From Flavobacteriales bacterium (GTDB lineage Bacteria; Bacteroidota; Bacteroidia; Flavobacteriales; TMED113): a stretch of 64,000 bases of DNA. Each line of letters begins with the position of its first letter. The stretch's first letter is position 1. The notes under the pieces were generated by a model. The model made no database searches and was not told the DNA's origin. It was given only the letters and a program-made list of their open reading frames with translations. Below, in pieces: positions 17,044-53,138 of the stretch. The translations under genes and the position numbers were made by a program. The stretch spans positions 36,183 through 100,182 of the forward strand of contig PAWM01000017.1 of NCBI GenBank assembly GCA_002714185.1. Reading direction: 5' to 3'.

Positions 17044-17991
17044 TCATAATTGTTTAAGTCTTTTTTTTTCAAAATTAAATTCCTTTATGATTTCATCTAT
17101 AATATCAGATGCAGAATCAATTGAATTTAACATAGATGCTACTTGACCAATTTCAAGCTCACCTTCACTTAAGTCACCTAAAAACATTCCTTTTTGTGCA
17201 CGACCTTTACCTAAAAGAACTTTTAAATCAGATTTAGAAGCATTGTCTAAGTAGGCTTCTTCTATTCTAGAATAAAACTTATTTTTCAACATTCTTACAG
17301 GTGTTAACTCTTTAAGAGTTAAAACAGTATCGCCATCATTGGAATTTAAAATTTTATTCTTAAAATTCATATGTGCTGAGCTTTCTTTTGATACAACAAA
17401 ACGAGACCCAATTTGTACACCATCAGCACCTAAAACCATAGCAGCTAGCATGGATTGACCAGATGAAATTCCACCTGCAGCAATTAATGGAATATCTCCA
17501 ATGGATTTTTTAATTAAAGGAATTAAACAAAAAGTTGTAGTTTCCTCTCTACCATTATGACCACCAGCTTCAAAACCTTCACAAACTAATGCATCAACAC
17601 CAGCTTCAATTGCTTTTAATGCAAATTTTAAATTCGAAATAACATGTACAACAATTACATTATTAGATTGTAATTTTTTAGTCCAAATAGCAGGGTTTCC
17701 AGCAGAAGTAAATACAATTGGAACTTTTTCTGAAATAATTATATCTATATGTTCACTTGAATATGGAAATAATAAAGGAAGATTAACTGCAAAATTATGA
17801 TTAGTATTTTTACGACATTTTTGTATATGCTCTTTCAAAATATTAGGCCGCATTGACCCAGAGCCAATAATACCTAGACCACCTGCATTAGATACGGCAG
17901 AAGCTAACCGCCACCCACTACACCACACCATTCCAGCTTGGATAATTGGATATTTAATACTAAATAAATTAGTAATTATGTTTTCTTTCAT
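17044..17991 (-). CDS. nitronate monooxygenase / NPD-family flavoprotein
   Basis: YPIIQAGMVWCSGWRLASAVSNAGGLGIIGSGSM, ALVCEGFEAGGHNGREETTTFCLIP, AAGGISSGQSMLAAMVLGADGVQIGSRF. Confidence 0.9.
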   Translation of the reverse strand: MKENIITNLFSIKYPIIQAGMVWCSGWRLASAVSNAGGLGIIGSGSMRPNILKEHIQKCRKNTNHNFAVNLPLLFPYSSEHIDIIISEKVPIVFTSAGNPAIWTKKLQSNNVIVVHVISNLKFALKAIEAGVDALVCEGFEAGGHNGREETTTFCLIPLIKKSIGDIPLIAAGGISSGQSMLAAMVLGADGVQIGSRFVVSKESSAHMNFKNKILNSNDGDTVLTLKELTPVRMLKNKFYSRIEEAYLDNASKSDLKVLLGKGRAQKGMFLGDLSEGELEIGQVASMLNSIDSASDIIDEIIKEFNFEKKRLKQL

Positions 17992-19565
17992 TAGTTTTTT
18001 ATAATTTTAAATACCTCATTATTCTCTCTTATTTTCAAAAAATATAAACCTGATTTAGCAAAAGATAAATCAAGATTATTATGCCATGGATTTAATATAC
18101 TAGAGTAAATCATATCACCAATTATATTAAAAATATCAATAGTGATGTTATTATTAGTTTTATTGTATAGTGTAAAATGATTGCTAAAAGGATTTGGAAA
18201 ATAACTTACACTAGAAAATTGTGCATCAATTTCAAGATTACTTAAAAAAGCTTGATAGAAATTTGGGATACCATAACCTAATGAGTCATTTGAATTATCA
18301 AAAAGATGGTCAGATTCTTGAATAACATCTATTAATTCCATATTTGTCAAACTTGTATCCGACTGCCATAAACATGCTGCTAAACCTGCAATTAGTGGAG
18401 AAGAAAAAGAAGTGCCATTTGCTAATCTTACAGTAGAATCTACATCTGCTACCACTGTATATACACCCTGGGCACAAACATTAGGCTTGATACGACCATC
18501 ATAAGATGGCCCTCTTGAGCTAAAAGATGCAACTTCACCAATTGCATTAACTGCACCTACCGCTAAAACACTATCACCGTCAGCTGGTGCTCCTATATAG
18601 TACCAATCATTATTCCCACTGTTTCCAGCACTGTTAACAACTAAAATACCTCTAGAAGCAGCTAAGTCTGCAGCATTAGTTATTATAGTAGAATTACCAT
18701 CCATATCATTATAAGAGTGACTATTAATAGTGTCATCATATAAAATTGTATAACCTAAAGAAGAATTAATTATATGAGCTCCTACAGAATCTGCATATTC
18801 TGCTGCTGCCGCCCAATTATCCTCTTCAACAAGTGTTTCAGAGGAAGAATCCTCTGTCCGAAACAACATATAAGTTGCTCCTGGTGCTGTACCAATTAAA
18901 CTATCAGGCATATATCCACCCATTGTTGATAACACCATAGTACCGTGTATACTTCCTAAAAAAACATTAGTATCATTATTTACAAAATCATATGTATCAA
19001 CTATTTGATTATTAATCCATAAATTATTAAAAATTGGTAATGTTTCTGTTTGTGTAAAACCTGCATCAAAAACAGCTATAACAATGCCATTACCAACAAA
19101 ACCCTGATTATGTAAATCTACACCACCCAACATATTTATCTGATTAAATGATGGACCATAAGAATTAATAAAAGATCTGTAAATATTATTATTGACTAAA
19201 TTAATTGAACCATTAAACTTATTGGAGTTTTTTAGTGTTTTAACTCGTTTAATTTCTTGAACAAAATTTAGTTCTTTTAATTGTTCTATCACATCGATTG
19301 ACTTAACACTTACAGAAACTGCATTAAGCCATCTAGATTGATGACGAATAGATAAATCATATTTATTTATAATTTTTATATAATCATCACATACTGGAAT
19401 ATCATAAAAATCAAATTCTATCCCTTGCAAAGACCTTCTTTCTACGGATTCAAATGAAAGATTAATATCAGTACTACATGCTTTATCACTAAAATATATC
19501 CACCAATTACTACTTTGAGAAAAAACAACCGAGGAAAATAAAAATATAAAAAATATATTTTTCAT
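17991..19565 (-). CDS. secreted S8-family (subtilisin-like) serine peptidase with conventional T9SS C-terminal sorting domain
   Basis: Signal peptide; VIAVFDAGF, HGTMVLSTMGG, NGTSFSSPLIAGLAACLWQ; C-terminal SYFPNPFSNHFTLYNKTNNNITIDIFNIIGDMIY...SGLYFLKIRENNEVFKIIKN. Confidence 0.9.
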   Translation of the reverse strand: MKNIFFIFLFSSVVFSQSSNWWIYFSDKACSTDINLSFESVERRSLQGIEFDFYDIPVCDDYIKIINKYDLSIRHQSRWLNAVSVSVKSIDVIEQLKELNFVQEIKRVKTLKNSNKFNGSINLVNNNIYRSFINSYGPSFNQINMLGGVDLHNQGFVGNGIVIAVFDAGFTQTETLPIFNNLWINNQIVDTYDFVNNDTNVFLGSIHGTMVLSTMGGYMPDSLIGTAPGATYMLFRTEDSSSETLVEEDNWAAAAEYADSVGAHIINSSLGYTILYDDTINSHSYNDMDGNSTIITNAADLAASRGILVVNSAGNSGNNDWYYIGAPADGDSVLAVGAVNAIGEVASFSSRGPSYDGRIKPNVCAQGVYTVVADVDSTVRLANGTSFSSPLIAGLAACLWQSDTSLTNMELIDVIQESDHLFDNSNDSLGYGIPNFYQAFLSNLEIDAQFSSVSYFPNPFSNHFTLYNKTNNNITIDIFNIIGDMIYSSILNPWHNNLDLSFAKSGLYFLKIRENNEVFKIIKN

Positions 19566-42780: not shown

Positions 42781-44034
42781 ATGAAAACTTATTTATTAAT
42801 CACATCATTATTTCTACAAACATTTTTATTTTCACAAACATGCATGTATGACTTTCTTATTAAGAAAAAATGTACAAATAATACTTTTAAAGTATTTTAC
42901 GAAAATGTATATAATGCATCTAAAAATAGAATGTCGACAAATAATAATACATATTATATTCCGGTAGTCTTTCATATTGTTTACAATACCGATGCTCAAA
43001 ACATAGCTGACTCAATTGTATATTCTCAAATTGATGTATTAAATGAAGATTATCGTAGACTAAATGCAAATGCTTCTGATACTCGAGATGAGTTTTTAGA
43101 GTTCGCAGGTGATGCTAATATTGAATTTTTCCTTGCTAATACTGATCCTGATGGAAACCCAACTAACGGCATAATTCATCAGTATACTTCTAGAGATGAA
43201 TTTCTAATGTTTGACAATATACTATCAAATGAAATTACCCTTGATGAAGTGAAATCTTCATTAACAGGTGGGTCAGATGCATGGAATACAAGCAAATACC
43301 TGAATATTTGGGTATGTAATATTGCAAGCTTAGATATTTTAGGATTAGAGCTTGGTCAAGTTTTTGGATATGCTTATCCTCCCACAAATATTGATGAAGC
43401 ATTATTAGAATTATCAAATTCACAAACTGTCCCTGATTGGCCCACAGATATGTTATCAAATGATGAATCTCTCCAAGGTGTTGTATTACATTATACAACT
43501 GTGGGTAGAAATAATCCATATGCAAATGACGATGGTATGGTTGAAAATAATCTAGGTAGAACTGCTGTACATGAAATAGGACATTACTTAGGTCTAAGAC
43601 ACACTTGGGGAGATGCAATAAGCTTTTTAGGTGAGGATGGGTGTAATCTAGATGATGGTATTTCAGACACACCCAATGCAAGCGATCAAGCTGGATATAT
43701 ATGTGATTTTAATAAAAATACTTGCACCGGTGATTTATTTGGGTCTACTGGGGAGGACTTACCTGATATGGTGGAAAATTATATGGACTATAGTCCAGAT
43801 GATTGCTTAAATATATTTACCAATGGACAAATTAATATTATGAGAAATATATTAGAAATAAGTAGACCTAATTTGATTAATGAATCAGTATCTGTTGAGA
43901 GTAATGATAGCCTATTAACTGATCTAAAACTAATTAAAAAAATTGATATATTAGGAAGACTAACAAATACAACAAAATTTAACATAGAATTTTACAATGA
44001 TGGTTCTGTTATGAAAAAATACATTATCAAATAA
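42781..44034 (+). CDS. secreted M43 (pappalysin-like) zinc metalloprotease with short IDxLGR...DGSV C-terminal tail
   Basis: Signal peptide; TAVHEIGHYLGLRHTWGD (HEXXHXXGXXH) and downstream VENYMDYSPDDC; C-terminal LIKKIDILGRLTNTTKFNIEFYNDGSVMKKYIIK. Confidence 0.9.
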   Translation: MKTYLLITSLFLQTFLFSQTCMYDFLIKKKCTNNTFKVFYENVYNASKNRMSTNNNTYYIPVVFHIVYNTDAQNIADSIVYSQIDVLNEDYRRLNANASDTRDEFLEFAGDANIEFFLANTDPDGNPTNGIIHQYTSRDEFLMFDNILSNEITLDEVKSSLTGGSDAWNTSKYLNIWVCNIASLDILGLELGQVFGYAYPPTNIDEALLELSNSQTVPDWPTDMLSNDESLQGVVLHYTTVGRNNPYANDDGMVENNLGRTAVHEIGHYLGLRHTWGDAISFLGEDGCNLDDGISDTPNASDQAGYICDFNKNTCTGDLFGSTGEDLPDMVENYMDYSPDDCLNIFTNGQINIMRNILEISRPNLINESVSVESNDSLLTDLKLIKKIDILGRLTNTTKFNIEFYNDGSVMKKYIIK

Positions 44035-44036
44035 AT

Positions 44037-45437
44037 TTATTTAATAATATAAAATTTCTCAATACTACCATCAGTAAATATTTTAGCACTAAAACCTAAT
44101 TGTGGATTTTGTCGACCAAGCACATCAATTGTTTTTATTAATGATTTATTTTGATTGAAATTTTCATTGTTCTGAAGAGGCCATGCAGCTACTTGCATAA
44201 AGAAATCCCATATTTGTTCATCTGCAAAACTAGGCCATGTGTGTTCCATTCCATTTGCAACATATAGTCTTAACTCTGTTGATGTATTACTAGTGCAACT
44301 AAAATATTGTGTAACATCAGTTGAATAGTCAAATCCAAAATTAATTGTTTCCTCATTTGTGCAACCGTGCATGTTACTCCAAAAATCCATAATTGTATAA
44401 ATATCTGGTGCTCCTCCCCAACCCTCACTCACATAGCCCATAGATCCATCCATAGGTACTACATCATCATTTGTTCCACTAATTTGCATTACTGGTATCA
44501 TTTCAGATGGGTTGCACTCATCCCAGTCTGGCCCACTCATTGTACCTGTTACTGAAGCAATTGCTTTAAAAATTTCTGGAGCATGACATGCTAATGACCA
44601 GCTCATGAAACCACCATTAGAGAAACCACATGAAAATGTTTTATTAGGATCTAAATCGTATTCTTCCTGAAGAGATAATGCTAGATTAGACAAGAACCCC
44701 AAATCATCCACCGTTGTCATTGAAGTATTAAAATTTGCATTCCAGTGGTTAACTCCCATCATATCAGCTAGTCCGTTGGGATAACATATTACAAATCCAT
44801 GTTGATTAGCTTGTTCTTGAAATAGACCAATCATATCTGACCCAGAACCCCAATAGCCATGTAATACAAACACAAGCGGAGCATTTTCTGGTAAGTTCTC
44901 AGGAACATATAAAAAATATTCTCTTTCTTGTTTGTCCCAGTCATAAAATAGTGGTGTAATACAAGAGTCATCATCTATGGTAGCTAATTCATTATAATTA
45001 ATTGCATCTTGATTAGTGCATCCTGGGATTTCCCATTCACAAGGGTCAGTATTGACTTCAAATGTCCAATACCCCCAAGTTCCATCAGTTAGCTCATATG
45101 TCTCAGGAGATTTTGTATTATTTACATTAACAACTATATATCCATCGTTCCAGCCGTCTCCATAACTGTCGTATGCCCCAATCATATAGCATCCATCACT
45201 TGGTAGACATGCTTCAAAATTAATTGTTTCATAATTATTTGTGCCAAGAAATCCCATTATTTGATTTTCTGAACTCGGATTTGCTGTCATCCAGGTGTTA
45301 TAATCCCATAATCCCCAAGCCATTTCATAAGCCCATTCTCCAGTAGTGGTTGATATAGATATTGTATATTCATTTTCATCACACTGAGAATTAGATATTA
45401 AAGGAAAAATAATTAGTATAAGTAAAATATATCTCAT
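44037..45437 (-). CDS. secreted PHB-depolymerase/feruloyl-esterase-like alpha/beta hydrolase with N-terminal DSYGDGW-type domain and GCTN...DDDSC repeat
   Basis: APLVFVLHGYWGSGSDM, FSCGFSNGGFMSWSLACHAPEIFKAIASVTG; GCYMIGAYDSYGDGWNDG; C-terminal LIKTIDVLGRQNPQLGFSAKIFTDGSIEKFYIIK. Confidence 0.88.
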   Translation of the reverse strand: MRYILLILIIFPLISNSQCDENEYTISISTTTGEWAYEMAWGLWDYNTWMTANPSSENQIMGFLGTNNYETINFEACLPSDGCYMIGAYDSYGDGWNDGYIVVNVNNTKSPETYELTDGTWGYWTFEVNTDPCEWEIPGCTNQDAINYNELATIDDDSCITPLFYDWDKQEREYFLYVPENLPENAPLVFVLHGYWGSGSDMIGLFQEQANQHGFVICYPNGLADMMGVNHWNANFNTSMTTVDDLGFLSNLALSLQEEYDLDPNKTFSCGFSNGGFMSWSLACHAPEIFKAIASVTGTMSGPDWDECNPSEMIPVMQISGTNDDVVPMDGSMGYVSEGWGGAPDIYTIMDFWSNMHGCTNEETINFGFDYSTDVTQYFSCTSNTSTELRLYVANGMEHTWPSFADEQIWDFFMQVAAWPLQNNENFNQNKSLIKTIDVLGRQNPQLGFSAKIFTDGSIEKFYIIK

Positions 45438-45448
45438 ATAATATTTAT

Positions 45449-46762
45449 TTAGTTTATGATGTATTGTTTTTCGACAGTACCATCATCATAAATATTAAAC
45501 AAGAATCTAGAATTACTAGTGTTATGTCGACCTAAGTAGTCAACCGAGTAAAGTAAATGCTTAATAGAAAAATTTTCATCAATATTAGTATAATTAAAAT
45601 TTGGATTATATAATTCAATTATTTCGTTTGGACCTTGACTTGGCCAAGAGTAACCATTAGTAGCTAAGTATATTTTACCGTCTGGACTAACACAGATATC
45701 TCTTAATCTACCCCATTCATTATTAAAAAATTCAGTGTATTCAGTAACCTCCTGCCCATCGTCAGTAAATTCGAATCTTACGAGCATTTTATCCTTTAAA
45801 ACAGTCATTAAAAGAGTATTTTGAAACTCAGGAATTGAAGGATGATAATACCATATAATATCAGAAGTAGCAATCGTACTTGAGCCACTACTCCAAATCG
45901 CATCTACAATATTATTGTCTTCACAATAATCAGTTTCTGTATAGTTATTACTTAAATCACTTGCGTAATAATAATCTACCGATAGATTATCGCAATAACC
46001 CTGCACATTGGGCCATCCATAATTCGAACCAGAACTTAAAATATTTAATTCATCATCATTACTTGGTCCATGCTCAGAACTATAAATTATATTATTTGCA
46101 CCTATCGCTAAACCCTGTGCATTTCTATGACCTAAGCTCCATACTAAACTACCAGGAATTGGATTATCAACAGCAGGACTACCCATAGTTCCATCAGTTG
46201 GATTAATACTCATTCTCAATGTTTTACCTGTTAACTCGTTAATATCTTGAGAAGCATCCCAATCTTGGGCATCTCCTGTAGTAATCAACATTGTTAAATC
46301 ATCCATTGCAAGTAATCTACACCCAATATGTGTACTATTGCCATCAAGACCATCTAATAAGATAACTTCATTTATTAATTGATCTAAATTTTGATCATAT
46401 TCATAATATACTATTTTTTCTTTTGCACCTGAGGACAAGTATGTGTATGCTAAAAAAACATATGGGTAACCTTCATTAAATAAAGGATGAATTTCCATAC
46501 CTAAAAGCCCAGCCTCATTAGAATCCCAAACATCACTTTGAATATCCAAGATAATGTGCTTGTCTCCTGTTTCAACATTAATTCTACTAACTAAACCAGA
46601 TCTTTCAGTTACCCACAGATAATTATCTGGTCCCCATTTAATTTCCCAAGGCACATCTAAACCATTCACAACCTCTCTTTCATTTAATATTGTAGAGCCA
46701 ACTTGATGTTGAGAATATAAAAAGTTAGTAGTTAATAATACAAGTAGTAAAAAAATTTTCAT
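45449..46762 (-). CDS. secreted glucose/sorbosone dehydrogenase-like (PQQ-dependent sugar dehydrogenase family) protein
   Basis: LDVPWEIKWGPDNYLWVTERSGLVSRI; GLLGMEIHPLF; SLGHRNAQGLAIG..YSSEHGPSNDDELNIL; C-terminal SVDYLGRHNTSNSRFLFNIYDDGTVEKQYIIN. Confidence 0.9.
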   Translation of the reverse strand: MKIFLLLVLLTTNFLYSQHQVGSTILNEREVVNGLDVPWEIKWGPDNYLWVTERSGLVSRINVETGDKHIILDIQSDVWDSNEAGLLGMEIHPLFNEGYPYVFLAYTYLSSGAKEKIVYYEYDQNLDQLINEVILLDGLDGNSTHIGCRLLAMDDLTMLITTGDAQDWDASQDINELTGKTLRMSINPTDGTMGSPAVDNPIPGSLVWSLGHRNAQGLAIGANNIIYSSEHGPSNDDELNILSSGSNYGWPNVQGYCDNLSVDYYYASDLSNNYTETDYCEDNNIVDAIWSSGSSTIATSDIIWYYHPSIPEFQNTLLMTVLKDKMLVRFEFTDDGQEVTEYTEFFNNEWGRLRDICVSPDGKIYLATNGYSWPSQGPNEIIELYNPNFNYTNIDENFSIKHLLYSVDYLGRHNTSNSRFLFNIYDDGTVEKQYIIN

Positions 46763-46764
46763 AA

Positions 46765-49700
46765 TTATTTATTTATTTGATATATCTTGTCTACACTACC
46801 ATCTTCGTAGAAATAAAAGATATACTGATTAGTTGTTTTTTTATTTACATCCCTTCCTAACACATCTTTAACAGATGATATTTTTTTAAAATTAAATATA
46901 TTTTCTAATAAATTAATAGATGATGGAATAATTGAAACATTAAATTCAATAACACATGTTTCATTTTCACCATAAAACTGCATAAAACTAATTGTACCTT
47001 CTCCAGGGTTTAACCATTGTACTCCAATACTTGGTTCATTAGCCGAATTCCATACGATATTACCCCCAGTTATACTCCAAGAGGCAGTATTATCAATATT
47101 AGAAGATAATGTATAAATTTGATAAGAACCTGACTCAACAACAATATCACCAATAATATTAACATATTGACATGAGCACTCATCACCATATCCATCATTA
47201 TCATTATCTATTTGACTAGGATTATACTCTTCAATACAGTTATCTATTTGATCACAAATACCATCTAAATCCATATCAGACAAACAATTTCCATTACAAT
47301 CAAAGAAATTCTCAGGACCATCACCATCACATTCGCCACATTCATCTAAAATAGCTAAACCACCACATTCACCTAAACAATCTATATTAACTAAACAATT
47401 TCCATCGCAATCAAAATTTGTTACAGGATAATCACAACTATTATCTTCAATAATAGCATCATTATCATAATTACATGCTAATATATCAGTACAACCTAAA
47501 CAAATTGTATTGTCACCATTACATATACCACATTCATCTACAATAGCTGAACCACCACAATCACCTGCACAATCTATATTAATTAAACAATTTCCATCGC
47601 AATCAAAATTAATTTCAGGAAACTGACATGATTCATCATCAATATTAGCTGTCATATTATAATTACATGCATCTGGGTTCATACAACCAAATAAATCACA
47701 AATTTCGTCATTATTTATATCACTTAAACAATTTCCTTCACAATCAAAATTAGAAGAAGGATATTCACAAGAACCATCTTCTAAATTATTCAACTCATCA
47801 TAATTACATGCAAATGAATCTGTGCATCCTTCAATTATTAATGTCAAACAAGAACCATCATCCTCTGTAGCTATGGAATTGTACTCAAAATAATTCTCAT
47901 TAGTACACCCAAAAATTTCATCCTCATCACAAATATTATCTTCATCTAAATCTGCTTCACATATAATAACACAAAATTCATTTAAAGATTCTTGACCATA
48001 ATTAAGATTATCCATTTGCACTAAGTAATCTCCATCCAAAGATAAAATGTAAAAGTTTGGTTCATTACCAGCTGTATTATCAGAACTCAATCCATCGCCC
48101 CAAGAATCATATATATTAAACTCATAGCAACCTTCAGCTAAACAATAGGTTTGATTAACAGTAATCCCACCTTGAAAATAATCTCCAATTTCAACATTTT
48201 CAATCGTAGAACCATTATCTATAGTTAAAAGCTCCCAACCGACTTCATTACTATAATAATCTGTTTCTAAAAATAATGTAATTTCACCTGAACATATACA
48301 AGAACCATCATCCATTGATGCATTTGGATTATAATTATCTGCATTAGGACTCATGCAACCATAAATATATTCACATGAATTATCATTTATATTAGCATTT
48401 GGATTATAATTTTCAGCAATTGAATCAGTACAACCATAAATTGAATTTCCACAACTAGTTTCAATATCATCACAGGTTGTGATGCAATTTGCACTATTTA
48501 CACCCGGTATTAAAGCTTGATTTTCAACAATTTGATGAAATTCTAAAGAGATACCAACTGATCCTAAATCACAATAACTCATTATAGTTCCTAAAGACTG
48601 TTGCCATAACTCATTTGGAATATCAGCAGGTGTATCACATCCACCTTCAACATCTGCACAACCATCAATTGCACCACCAGGGAAACTTAAAGACATATCT
48701 GCATCCCATCCACAATTATGTGTATGCGGGGAGCCAAAATTATGACCAATTTCGTGACCTAAATATGAAAGATTATAACTGTATGGTGTATTGTCTGGAT
48801 AATCATATGTTAAAGTAGTATTTAGTCCAGTTGTTACTCCAAAACCCCAATTTGCATTTGAAAGACCTCCACATAAAGCACCAACATATGCAATACCACC
48901 ATTAGCATTTTTTCTGCTAAACAAATGTACTAAATCTGTTTGTGCATAAATATCACTAAATGGTGGATTATTCCAGTATGTAGGCATTGCATCAAGCATT
49001 TCACCACAATCTGTAAGAGGTTCATAAATATCTTCAATCTCCCAAACATTAATATATCTAGCTTCTAGTGAAATTGGACTATCTAGTTGAGAACTAAGTT
49101 CAGAGTCATAAATTTCATTTACACCTGCAAGTAAAGCCAAGGCCCATTCAGCAGCATCAAAACAGTTTTGATTAAATTGATTATAAGTATAATAATCTAT
49201 TTCAATACCCATCTCAAGACACCCCCCTCCACCTGATGAGGACTGACTACTGTTTTGAAATTCAAAATTATCAGTATTTGTTTTACAAGTAAAATTAGAT
49301 TGAGCAGTACTTTTATTTACATCGAATAATACATATAAATTTTCATTAATTGATTTAATTTCATAAACCTGACCGTTTTTTTTAATTACTCCAATTAAAT
49401 AATTTTTCATAAATGATATACTACCTGACACTCCATCAGCTCCTTTTATTTTATATGATTTTATATCAGGCTTATAATTGTCATATATTAATCCATTTGC
49501 AGTATTTCTTAGTAATTGAAAATCATCAGTATATGCATTGAATGCACTAAGTTCAACTGTAAGTATAGTGTTATTGAAGAAAGGTAAATCTAAAACAAAA
49601 TCACATGGATTCACATTCTTAATATCATCAAAATAATCTAAATTTAATGAAAGAGGGATTTGAAATTCGTTATCATAAGTTAATAATGGAATATCATTAT

Positions 49701-49782
49701 CCGACTTAATAAATAATTTAGACTGTCCACTTAAACATAAGGATGTCAACACACAAAAAAATAAGCAGTAAATTTGCTTCAT
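46765..49782 (-). CDS. secreted reprolysin-like (M12B-type) metalloprotease with multiple Cys-rich GCTD..DDGSC repeats
   Basis: YLGHEIGHNFGSPHTHNC (HEXXHXXGXXH) then IMSYCDLG; six GC[TM][DN]..NYN...DD.SC repeats; TSP3-like NDNDGYGDEC; C-terminal VKDVLGRDVNKKTTNQYIFYFYEDGSVDKIYQINK. Confidence 0.88.
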   Translation of the reverse strand: MKQIYCLFFCVLTSLCLSGQSKLFIKSDNDIPLLTYDNEFQIPLSLNLDYFDDIKNVNPCDFVLDLPFFNNTILTVELSAFNAYTDDFQLLRNTANGLIYDNYKPDIKSYKIKGADGVSGSISFMKNYLIGVIKKNGQVYEIKSINENLYVLFDVNKSTAQSNFTCKTNTDNFEFQNSSQSSSGGGGCLEMGIEIDYYTYNQFNQNCFDAAEWALALLAGVNEIYDSELSSQLDSPISLEARYINVWEIEDIYEPLTDCGEMLDAMPTYWNNPPFSDIYAQTDLVHLFSRKNANGGIAYVGALCGGLSNANWGFGVTTGLNTTLTYDYPDNTPYSYNLSYLGHEIGHNFGSPHTHNCGWDADMSLSFPGGAIDGCADVEGGCDTPADIPNELWQQSLGTIMSYCDLGSVGISLEFHQIVENQALIPGVNSANCITTCDDIETSCGNSIYGCTDSIAENYNPNANINDNSCEYIYGCMSPNADNYNPNASMDDGSCICSGEITLFLETDYYSNEVGWELLTIDNGSTIENVEIGDYFQGGITVNQTYCLAEGCYEFNIYDSWGDGLSSDNTAGNEPNFYILSLDGDYLVQMDNLNYGQESLNEFCVIICEADLDEDNICDEDEIFGCTNENYFEYNSIATEDDGSCLTLIIEGCTDSFACNYDELNNLEDGSCEYPSSNFDCEGNCLSDINNDEICDLFGCMNPDACNYNMTANIDDESCQFPEINFDCDGNCLINIDCAGDCGGSAIVDECGICNGDNTICLGCTDILACNYDNDAIIEDNSCDYPVTNFDCDGNCLVNIDCLGECGGLAILDECGECDGDGPENFFDCNGNCLSDMDLDGICDQIDNCIEEYNPSQIDNDNDGYGDECSCQYVNIIGDIVVESGSYQIYTLSSNIDNTASWSITGGNIVWNSANEPSIGVQWLNPGEGTISFMQFYGENETCVIEFNVSIIPSSINLLENIFNFKKISSVKDVLGRDVNKKTTNQYIFYFYEDGSVDKIYQINK
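47160..48445 (-). repeat. coding tandem/interspersed Cys-rich repeats (GCxxxxAxNYNxxAxxDDxSC and FDCDGNCLxxIDCxGxCGG)
   Basis: Six copies including GCTDSIAENYNPNANINDNSC, GCMSPNADNYNPNASMDDGSC, GCTDSFACNYDELNNLEDGSC, GCTDILACNYDNDAIIEDNSC. Confidence 0.85.
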
Positions 49783-49794
49783 AATTTAGTAAAG

Positions 49795-51618
49795 TTAATG
49801 AATTAATTTCTTTTGTATTACTCCATTATTAAATATAAAAAATAACACTTGACCTTTCTGCGGATTTATCACATTTCTCCCCATCACATCAATAATTTTA
49901 ATTAAATTATCATCATCTAAATCAAGAAATTCTAAATCAACAGTATCATTACACGGTCCATCGGTAAATACAAAAATATTATTGCACTCCGCTTCTTCTA
50001 AATTACTATATGTCACTCCATTACATCCACATACAGGATCCCAGGTAGAGGAAAAGAAACAATCAGAATCTATTTGTGCTACACATTCAAATTCATCACA
50101 TTGATTATAGTCATAAATAAAACTATTATATCCCCCATCTAAAGCTGTCATGGGTCGGAATTGTTCTTTTCCATTGTTAGCAATTGCATGAATGTAGTAT
50201 TCAATTTCAGCAAGCTCATCAAAAGTCATTACCATATTCCATAATCCATCTACTTGATCCTGCTGCATATTAACAGAGTTAAATTCAACATCGCCTGCAT
50301 ATCTATATTTGAAATAAACCTCACTTATACCGGACTTATGCTGCACCATAGCTTGTAGCGGAACATAAGGAGTATTTGGACATATATCTTCAATTTTTTT
50401 ATAAGAAATTAATAAAGGCTCATTAACACCCACTGAGTGAGTTATACAATGAATAGCTCCGCTCAAAGAAATAATATTATTACCACTATTATCACAATCA
50501 ATTCCTACAATATTATATCCAGGTAATGCTTCTTCATAAATCCTTTGAGCTATGGTATCATATTCTTCACGATAAAATGGTACAATAACTGTTTTATTTA
50601 CAAAAACAGAATTTGTATATGTTCTATAATAACCATCGATTTGATTATTAGGTTGAGAACCAGGGTAAGCACCACTTGTACTTGGAGGACTAGGGATTCT
50701 AACAACTTTGAAAGGAGTCCCCCATTTAGTAGTATAGTTATTTAAAATATATTCTAAATTTTCTTCAATTTGCGGACCATCAGACATACCTTCTGGATAT
50801 TCGGCTACCAATAAAGTTTCTTCATCTAACAATTTCATATGCATATCAATGTGATGGATAGCATCATATGGAAGCTCAGGCATTTTTATATATGTTTCAA
50901 TACCCATAAATGAATTCATAATCTCATCAATATCTTGTTCAGATTGATTAGGATAATTAAGACTATTATAATCACCTGACCCATCATTTTCATCTAAAAT
51001 AAGATTCGATGAAAATGCTGTACCGAAACCATCAGTCATAAAATTTCCACCCGTTGCAACCAATCTGTATGGATTAACAGAAGTTTGATATAAATTGAGA
51101 TTCAAATAATCTGCTAAAGATTCTGGAAAAGTATCATCATCAGGCCTTGGTCTATTATAAATCCAATCTACTAAATAAAGTGAATCTACATCGTTTTCAT
51201 AAATTGTATTTTGACCATAGTCTCGCATCCATATACTATTTGTGCTAATATTTAAATACTCTACATTGGATGTTTCCACATTATTATTCATTAAATAATT
51301 TTCTACTTGACTTGGGTTTTCACATGCAATTATTACTTTACATTGATCAACAGAATTTCTAACAATTTCAGTAAGAATAGGCTCGTAACCTTCCCAAGCA
51401 ATAGTTAATGCTTGTATTTCTTCCCATTCAGCCATAGTTCGAACTGAAAAATTAGGAGGGACAGTAATTACATCTTGTGAAATTGATAAATTAGATAAAT
51501 ACTTATCCATTAAATTAAATTCTTCAAATGAAAAATTTTTTGGCAGCATTTTTTCTTGAGAAAAAACAAAATTAAATAGAAAAAGAAAAGCAAAGGAAAT
51601 TTGGTACAATTTATTCAT
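49795..51618 (-). CDS. secreted agmatine deiminase/peptidylarginine deiminase-family protein with C-terminal Kazal-like module
   Basis: TIAWEGYEPILTEIVRNSVDQCKVIIACENP; SIWMRDYGQ; ATGGNFMTDGFG; HHIDMHMK; GAIHCITHSVG; Kazal-like CFFSSTWDPVCGCNGVTYSNLEEAEC; tail LIKIIDVMGRNV...FNNGVIQKKLIH. Confidence 0.88.
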   Translation of the reverse strand: MNKLYQISFAFLFLFNFVFSQEKMLPKNFSFEEFNLMDKYLSNLSISQDVITVPPNFSVRTMAEWEEIQALTIAWEGYEPILTEIVRNSVDQCKVIIACENPSQVENYLMNNNVETSNVEYLNISTNSIWMRDYGQNTIYENDVDSLYLVDWIYNRPRPDDDTFPESLADYLNLNLYQTSVNPYRLVATGGNFMTDGFGTAFSSNLILDENDGSGDYNSLNYPNQSEQDIDEIMNSFMGIETYIKMPELPYDAIHHIDMHMKLLDEETLLVAEYPEGMSDGPQIEENLEYILNNYTTKWGTPFKVVRIPSPPSTSGAYPGSQPNNQIDGYYRTYTNSVFVNKTVIVPFYREEYDTIAQRIYEEALPGYNIVGIDCDNSGNNIISLSGAIHCITHSVGVNEPLLISYKKIEDICPNTPYVPLQAMVQHKSGISEVYFKYRYAGDVEFNSVNMQQDQVDGLWNMVMTFDELAEIEYYIHAIANNGKEQFRPMTALDGGYNSFIYDYNQCDEFECVAQIDSDCFFSSTWDPVCGCNGVTYSNLEEAECNNIFVFTDGPCNDTVDLEFLDLDDDNLIKIIDVMGRNVINPQKGQVLFFIFNNGVIQKKLIH

Positions 51619-51686: not shown

Positions 51687-53138
51687 TTATAAAATAATAA
51701 GTTTTTCAAAATGATTCAACTCATTTAACTCATTAATTACATTCACATAGTATAGTCCTGGAGATATACTTCCCAAAGGAACTATAGGATGATTAATACC
51801 AATTAAATCAGTATATATAATGTTTCCAGATAAATTATAAATTGTAATTACAGATTTTGAATCTAGATTAAATAAGGATAAATCTATGTAATCGTTAGCA
51901 GGATTAGGAAAAATAGAAACATCTATATGCACACTATTATCTTCTAAATTTATTACCAACCCTTCATCAACAATATCAACATTATAATCAATATAATTAA
52001 CCAAACCAGTACAATTGTTTATGACTTCTAAAGTAACTACATATTCACCAGGTTCATCATATATAAAATAAGGGTTCATTAAATTAGAATCAATATAACC
52101 ATCCTCATTAAAATCCCAAGAATAATAATTTTCATTTGAATTAAAATCTGATTCTGTATTGAAAAAATAAACTGTATCGTTTTGAATTGAATAATCAAAC
52201 AAGGGCAGTCCAAATGTGCTATTTTCTTGATTCATATTAGTATTAGTAAGAAAAACACCTGAATCAAGTCCAGCCCAATAATCTGAAACACCATCAACAA
52301 TTACTAATTTAATATGATAATTAGCATCTGGTAAAAGCAATAAATTAAATAACATAGGAATAGTATAGCCATCATAACCAATAGCATCACAAAATTCTCC
52401 ATTTGGATTATCTAAATATAAACACTCATTTTGACCTGGTAGACCAAATACTTCAGAATAAGGTCTAATAGTCCATGCAGATATCGGCTTATTCTCAATT
52501 TCACAGCTAATTATATTATTATTGAATTCTGAGTTTAAAATTAAGCCCGTTTCCATAATATTAACAGGATTTGAATCAAAGTTTGGATCAATATTTCCAT
52601 TAATTTCAGTAACAAAAAAAGCAAATGCATCTGCATAAAATGGGCTCATCCATTCAGTATATTCTTCTGAGCCAAAAATAACCTCAAAATTAAAGGAAGA
52701 AGAATCAGTAGATAAAACATCAAACTCTAATACACAAGCATCAAAAAGATCTACACTGGGAGTTATTACTCCATAATCCACTAAATAATTATGAAAAAAT
52801 GAATCAAAATATTCCACATTCCATTCTTCTCCACTGTCACCACTATTATTAGGTCCCTGAGCATAATCAATCATTCCACTTGTCATTAAAATTCCCCTGT
52901 TTAAACCAAAATCACCAAAACAATAATCACTATTCTGCGTGTAAGAAAAATTACCAATAGCCTGCTGACTACCTATGTATTCTATATTAGAGACTTCAAC
53001 ACCACATCCAAATAATTCAGAAACAATTATATTTTCTAAGTCATCTGAGCTCACATCAATTGAAGTTACTTCAAGTTGAGCAGAAACGTTTGAATAAAAA
53101 GAAATAAAAAAAATAACAATTAATACTCTATTAATCAT
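51687..53138 (-). CDS. secreted choice-of-anchor L-type protein with PKD-like domain and conventional T9SS C-terminal domain
   Basis: FSYTQNSDYCFGDFGLNRGILMTSGMIDYAQGPNNS; FEVIFGSEEYTEW..YADAFAFFV; YSWDFNEDGYIDS; SIFPNPANDYIDLSLF...GLYYVNV. Confidence 0.82.
   Translation of the reverse strand: MINRVLIVIFFISFYSNVSAQLEVTSIDVSSDDLENIIVSELFGCGVEVSNIEYIGSQQAIGNFSYTQNSDYCFGDFGLNRGILMTSGMIDYAQGPNNSGDSGEEWNVEYFDSFFHNYLVDYGVITPSVDLFDACVLEFDVLSTDSSSFNFEVIFGSEEYTEWMSPFYADAFAFFVTEINGNIDPNFDSNPVNIMETGLILNSEFNNNIISCEIENKPISAWTIRPYSEVFGLPGQNECLYLDNPNGEFCDAIGYDGYTIPMLFNLLLLPDANYHIKLVIVDGVSDYWAGLDSGVFLTNTNMNQENSTFGLPLFDYSIQNDTVYFFNTESDFNSNENYYSWDFNEDGYIDSNLMNPYFIYDEPGEYVVTLEVINNCTGLVNYIDYNVDIVDEGLVINLEDNSVHIDVSIFPNPANDYIDLSLFNLDSKSVITIYNLSGNIIYTDLIGINHPIVPLGSISPGLYYVNVINELNELNHFEKLIIL

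Follow-up and report, generated by a model that had tools for sequence, protein, structure and literature searches.

Why do five secreted proteins with unrelated bodies, encoded side by side, end in the same kind of short tail? The question is raised by a 64,000-nucleotide stretch of a Flavobacteriales genome (assembly GCA_002714185.1, contig PAWM01000017.1, positions 36,183 to 100,182), hereafter "the window", which is C17:36183-100182 among the contigs of the host genome (1.52 Mb in 21 contigs, 88.7% complete). A first-pass annotation of the window took the tails (34-38 residues, the classical type A domain being twice as long) for truncated or divergent C-terminal domains (CTDs) of the type IX secretion system (T9SS). 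All five open reading frames (ORFs) and the ends given for them match, and the similarity among the five tails is confirmed to lie far beyond chance. Four of the ORFs are on the minus strand and one (42781-44034) is on the plus strand. The claim that the catalytic domains are unrelated and the tail modular holds as well: by Pfam and NCBIfam the five bodies are M43, PHB-depolymerase-like, GSDH (glucose/sorbosone dehydrogenase), reprolysin-type and PAD_porph. We consider it very likely that the tail serves as a short C-terminal signal for sorting by the T9SS, a reduced or divergent CTD, and there is strong circumstantial evidence that this reduced signal is real and lineage-wide.

Part of the evidence for this reading comes from homologues. 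If the tail acts as a T9SS CTD, a CTD should be found in its place when a homologue comes from outside the lineage. A hidden Markov model (HMM) trained on the type A CTDs of the host itself was used to call such domains, and a type A CTD replaces the tail in 53 of 57 homologues of three window enzymes from other Bacteroidia. For the M43 peptidase, 14 out of 14 homologues have a type A CTD at the tail position. The glucose/sorbosone dehydrogenase yields 12 out of 14, the other two ending without any extension, and the PAD-like protein 27 out of the 29 homologues with fetched loci (48-55% identity over the body). Of the two other PAD-like homologues, one ends in dockerin-like repeats and one is shortened, its frame running off the contig. 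Since the tail occupies the exact place of the CTD of its relatives, it is very probably a miniature T9SS signal.

Placement, cargo and distribution of the tail

The host genome has 40 places that match an HMM built from the five window tails, and for 36 the E-value is below 1e-4. When the ORFs are read, the tail ends 0-5 residues before the stop codon in 39 of the 40. The remaining tail (contig C16:140697-140798) is interrupted by an in-frame TAA after LGKKTVQKKG; this is either a decayed signal or an assembly error. The host counts are one too high because an identical tail protein sits on two contigs (C2:1895-1996 and C16:159444-159545), probably an assembly overlap. The host cargoes represent at least 17 unrelated body families. 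With about 39 tails to 36 classical type A CTDs scoring above the TIGR04183 cut-off, the tail is as common in this genome as the known signal.

A signal-peptide-like N-terminus, called by a simple hydrophobicity rule and not by SignalP, is present in 66 of 70 complete tail cargoes, and in 61 of the 70 the likely cut is a small residue followed by Gln. Both this result and the closeness of the tails to the stop codon bear out the enrichment expected of a sorting signal at the exact C-termini of proteins with signal peptides. N, S and T are abundant in the linker upstream of the tail.

The host genome encodes the machinery. SprA (2624 bits) is found on contig C5, and PorV (438 bits, C3:5471-6511) and PorU (1203 bits) are adjacent on contig C3. 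There are three PorV-family matches in all, the third of them weak (34 bits, C16:59837), and one paralogue (C3:25002-25943) adjoins a long PorZ-like ORF; the three look like PorV, a PorQ-like paralogue and a distant barrel. PorV and PorU are likewise present in the tail's GTDB family. In a sample of the order, 61 of 62 genomes with tails encode SprA vs 82 of 111 tail-free ones (Fisher p = 1e-5), the sole SprA-negative tail-bearing genome being an 87%-complete metagenome-assembled genome (MAG), and none of the clearly T9SS-lacking genomes has a tail. The co-occurrence with SprA, PorV and PorU that the first-pass annotation proposed as a check is thus found, with all three in the host, and the tails are neither mostly on non-secreted proteins nor mostly in genomes that lack the T9SS.

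Within the host's GTDB family, each of the 12 genomes has the tail, in 12-42 copies. The order sample yields tails in 107 of 398 genomes, with counts that are lower bounds (the best 19 candidates per genome were scored). Order families f1, f61, f64 and f68 have several to many tails per genome and f60 mostly one, while the profile search of these 398 genomes showed no tail in f2 and f3. The f60 tail that was read (among single-copy genomes, e.g. L257) is on a PHB-depolymerase-like esterase; such copies, standing alone outside the expansion, suggest either transfer or an ancestral seed. A phylum sample of 396 genomes returns the host, one strong single match and one weak match that is unlike a C-terminal tail. 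The strong match, ELIGVFDVNGRKVESVENQLLFYIYSDGSVEKKLIFEY, is a lone tail in G064, a 5.2 Mb genome from a different family that is distant from the main lineage; the protein bearing it is secreted and GH16-like. Prokaryote genomes (up to 264 Gb) searched for Y[ND]DGxxEKK with an exact DNA pattern give at least 84 readable matches. Among the matches listed, 82 lie 12-15 residues before a stop codon, and nearly all come from Flavobacteriales MAGs, some labelled Cryomorphaceae, Crocinitomicaceae or BACL11. The tail-bearing bacteria are a small-genome, mostly marine group spanning several Flavobacteriales families.

Sequence and predicted structure

The consensus of 101 non-redundant tails is K-K-L-I-K-h-h-D-h-L-G-R-x(8-13)-L-F-Y-I-Y-[DN]-D-G-[TS]-V-E-K-K-h-h-h-[EK]-end. 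Its near-invariant core consists of the Gly of LGR (100 of the 101 tails), Y/F (101), D (98), G (99) and, where motif E starts, K/R (100). The shared pattern of the earlier working consensus is real; its details are refined by the larger set, in which the spacer x(8-13) replaces x(9-14).

Existing models do not claim the tail. The five window proteins match no CTD model in NCBIfam (E up to 10) or Pfam (E up to 1). When 69 tails are scanned singly against 18,950 NCBIfam models, three touch TIGR04183, all below the cut-off (best E 0.051); every other NCBIfam family has one match at most. PF18962 matches none of the 69, for which Pfam overall gives scattered single matches, and the type B (TIGR04131) and type C CTD models match neither the five proteins nor the 69 tails. 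The tails therefore fall outside the existing CTD models, with scores below the TIGR04183 and PF18962 cut-offs. The two classical CTDs that the first-pass annotation had pointed out in the window (ORFs 17991-19565 and 51687-53138) exceed the cut-offs of both models. One host protein end (C14:8048-8146) has a tail match overlapping a weak partial TIGR04183 match (12.7 bits, model positions 8-35) and is a possible intermediate between the type A CTD and the short tail.

The tail nevertheless shares two motifs with the type A CTD. Tails compared with the host type A CTDs give a profile-profile score of 17.4, which 0 of 200 column shuffles reach (maximum 15.5; reversed 10.0). The local profile alignment is the IxxDxxGR strand (motif B), so the resemblance of the LGR core to the 'IYDxLGR' strand of type A, suspected at first pass, withstands this comparison. 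Of the 101 tails, 99 have D or N, 100 have G and 82 have R/K at the respective positions of motif B. The tail HMM scores more than 3 bits in 36% of 83 type A CTDs vs 2.4% of reversed and 2.8% of shuffled sequences and 0% of catalytic segments. For the rest of the tail the register is counted from the C-terminus, because the middle segment differs in length and global hhalign misaligns motif E. In this register a basic residue stands at -5 in 83% of tails and 37-53% of type A CTDs (motif E); the tails also have K/R at -6 in 87% and hydrophobic residues at -4 to -2 in 85-87%. The hydrophobic positions -4 to -2 and a turn-like Gly/Asn/Asp-rich stretch at about -12 to -10 are common to tails and type A CTDs. 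Type A CTDs carry GxY at -21 to -19 (Tyr at -19 in 56-63%); the tails have no conserved Gly before the second strand, and none has a PNP strand. As the first-pass annotation stated, then, the tail is without the classical 'FPNP...GxYxLKI' body. We have not filed it as a type A CTD because it stays below the cut-off and lacks motif D and the seven-strand features. The likeness of motif B to that of type A favors the view that the tail may have descended from type A rather than converged on it.

AlphaFold predicts three strands after a low-confidence linker in each of two runs on different window tails: E17-22, E33-38 and E43-47 of 50 residues, and E36-41, E53-58 and E63-67 of the 70 residues that end the glucose/sorbosone dehydrogenase (tail 3). 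Block-mean confidence (predicted local distance difference test) is 75-91 in the tail and 44-65 in the preceding linker. The seven-stranded beta-sandwich with a PNP start is not what these models give, and a sequence search of the PDB with the tail returned no match (best E 5.1). Table 1 collects the features of the window.

Table 1. Tails, their secreted cargo proteins and the classical CTDs used as comparators, with positions in the window
Feature	Position	Strand	Remarks
Tail 1	43930..44031	+	LIKKIDILGRLTNTTKFNIEFYNDGSVMKKYIIK; C-terminus of M43 metallopeptidase ORF 42781-44034
Tail 2	44040..44141	-	C-terminus of PHB-depolymerase-like esterase ORF 44037-45437
Tail 3	45452..45556	-	C-terminus of glucose/sorbosone dehydrogenase ORF 45449-46762
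Tail 4	46768..46881	-	C-terminus of reprolysin-type metallopeptidase ORF 46765-49782
Tail 5	49798..49905	-	C-terminus of PAD_porph-like ORF 49795-51618; the most divergent of the five, FNNGVIQKKLIH
Cargo, secreted M43 metallopeptidase	42781..44034	+	N-terminal signal peptide, end ...FLFSQ
Cargo, secreted PHB-depolymerase-like esterase	44037..45437	-	
Cargo, secreted glucose/sorbosone dehydrogenase	45449..46762	-	
Cargo, secreted reprolysin-type metallopeptidase	46765..49782	-	Cys/Asn-rich repeats
Cargo, secreted PAD_porph/agmatine-deiminase-like protein	49795..51618	-	Kazal-like segment
Comparator, classical type A CTD (TIGR04183)	51693..51914	-	of choice-of-anchor L ORF 51687-53138
Comparator, classical type A CTD (TIGR04183)	17994..18200	-	of subtilase ORF 17991-19565

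Several Cys/Asn/Asp repeats that follow the pattern GCTDxxAxNYNxxAxxDDxSC are found in the reprolysin-type ORF. Other tail cargoes have comparable repeats, which are probably behind a 19-member cluster in an all-against-all comparison. A PADLOC scan of neighboring genes was empty.

Possible routes of recognition

As a T9SS signal, the tail would work as follows. The cargo would cross the inner membrane by Sec, using its N-terminal signal peptide. The last 34-38 residues would fold as a small three-stranded sheet in which strand 1 would hold the DhLGR loop (motif B), strand 2 would be hFYIY, followed by the DDG turn, and strand 3 would carry the basic residues of motif E. We infer that the T9SS would recognize this sheet, passing the cargo into the SprA pore and out with PorV as the shuttle, and that PorU probably cuts in the hydrophilic linker upstream of the tail, the cargo then being released or anchored. 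The tail would thus be a type A CTD cut down to strands 3, 6 and 7, whether by descent or by convergence. The proposal of a truncated or divergent T9SS CTD finds support in the exchange among homologues, in motifs B and E, in the presence of SprA, PorV and PorU, and in the signal peptides.

Several observations weigh on the other side. Motif D (GxY) is absent from the tails, though it is conserved in type A CTDs and in most of the short CTDs of Prevotella intermedia. The hhalign probability for tail vs type A is 15-21%, a homology over a short stretch that is weak in absolute terms. Foldseek with the tail model against the PDB returns generic small sheets and no CTD; it cannot place the tail because a three-stranded sheet holds too little information. 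The association with SprA is confounded by phylogeny, since most of the SprA-negative genomes listed are of 0.3-0.6 Mb. A motif (small residue, I/V/L, x, E/D/N) similar to the cleavage consensus of P. intermedia is present in 16 of 80 linkers vs 4.4 expected (shuffles give at most 10); it is only modestly enriched, and as a possible cleavage site it is no more than suggestive. Finally, two signals coexist in one genome, 36 classical type A CTDs beside the tails.

Within the host, the proteins that bear the tail are significantly shorter than those with a type A CTD (median 467 vs 740 aa, p = 0.0015), so the two signals may serve different cargo sets. A dedicated shuttle or a co-evolved surface of PorV or SprA could recognize the tail, which lacks motif D and would then constitute a further class of T9SS signal. 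We think this unlikely; if true, it would mean two parallel sorting routes through one translocon, perhaps one for release and one for anchoring, in small-genome marine Flavobacteriales. Somewhat less likely again is a tail that uses SprA with a shuttle of its own, a PorV-family or PorP/SprF-like barrel, and brings its cargo to a final place different from that of type A cargo. The sharing of one genome by 39 tails and 36 type A CTDs, the differing cargo sets and the three PorV-family matches, one of them weak, would fit such a shuttle, and type B CTDs are a precedent for separate shuttles (PMC12618676). However, the PorV-family matches show no expansion parallel to that of the tail, the f60 genomes mostly have one tail without expansion, as if the ordinary T9SS copes, and the short and long CTDs of P. 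intermedia have been modelled on the same PorV (PMC11969387).

A role outside export can be given little credence. The tail is modular, exactly C-terminal and found on secreted proteins, as known anchoring signals are, and it could be a surface-anchoring or retention signal, or the target of an unrelated processing enzyme. We judge this improbable given the one-for-one replacement of type A CTDs, the motifs B and E common to both, and the presence of SprA and PorU in tail-bearing genomes. An anchor of the LPXTG or PEP-CTERM kind is rejected, the tail having no hydrophobic helix with a basic end. That the tail is a lineage-specific structural extension with no targeting role would agree with its being largely confined to a few related families, but this is scarcely credible, because a single genome has the tail on 17 or more unrelated body families, and it always stands exactly at the C-terminus of proteins that also have a signal peptide.

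Reading the tail as a T9SS sorting signal has three consequences. The secretomes of these mostly marine Flavobacteriales lineages would be undercounted by about half, because about 39 host cargoes bear the tail, in addition to the 36 that type A models find. As a natural signal some 35 residues long and devoid of motif D, the tail would help to define which features of a CTD are read by SprA and PorV, which full-length domains have left open. The tail might also serve as a compact surface-display tag.

Comparison with known sorting signals

The type A CTD (TIGR04183/PF18962) resembles the tail in its place on homologous enzymes, its IxxDxxGR strand, its basic residue at -5 and its hydrophobic last strand, and the same machinery genes accompany both in the genome. 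The tail differs in being half as long, with three predicted strands vs seven, no PNP-containing first strands and no GxY. The conserved residues of type A mostly determine its fold (PMC10994853). RgpB requires the Gly in the loop that follows strand 3 (PMC11285876), and in solved translocons a near-invariant Lys close to the CTD end contacts PorV (PMC10994853); the tail keeps a Gly and basic residues at the corresponding places. Type B (TIGR04131) and type C (ChiA) CTDs are T9SS signals which, like the tail, lie at the C-terminus and have sequences unlike that of type A, but type B is about 100 residues long and has its own motifs and PorP/SprF shuttles (PMC12618676). Deletions in a GFP (green fluorescent protein) fusion of Porphyromonas gingivalis HBP35 trace surface translocation to the last 22 residues, which hold motifs D and E, with motifs A, B and C dispensable (PMC3120885). 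Those 22 residues are an artificial truncation of type A with motif D and without motif B; the natural tail is the opposite, having motif B and no GxY.

The closest parallel is the set of short CTDs in P. intermedia, the only species for which a literature text search found that term (two papers); the tail sequence strings themselves gave no match in 5.4 million papers. There, 48 signals of 43-55 residues have three predicted strands, the counterparts of strands 3, 6 and 7 in long CTDs. They carry motifs B, D and E, are cleaved and glycosylated, and are modelled on PorV like long CTDs (PMC11969387). According to its authors (2025), P. intermedia is the only species reported with both short and long CTDs (PMC11969387). 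Like the tail, these signals are C-terminal, extend about 45-50 residues from the likely cut site, form one three-stranded sheet with motifs B and E, and occur alongside long CTDs in one genome on proteins with signal peptides. Unlike the tail, they retain a motif D (GxY or GxN, with the Gly invariant) separated from motif B by 1-6 residues, and they are mostly found by existing CTD models, whereas no Pfam or NCBIfam model matches the tail. The tail in turn has a near-invariant Y-[DN]-D-G-[TS]-V-E-K-K block that sets it apart from the P. intermedia signals by their published description, and it is found in several Flavobacteriales families rather than in one species. The idea of a minimal three-stranded CTD is therefore already known from P. 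intermedia (PMC11969387), and the tail is a second class of short CTD: shorter, distinct in sequence by description, without GxY, and spread over several families of the Flavobacteriales.

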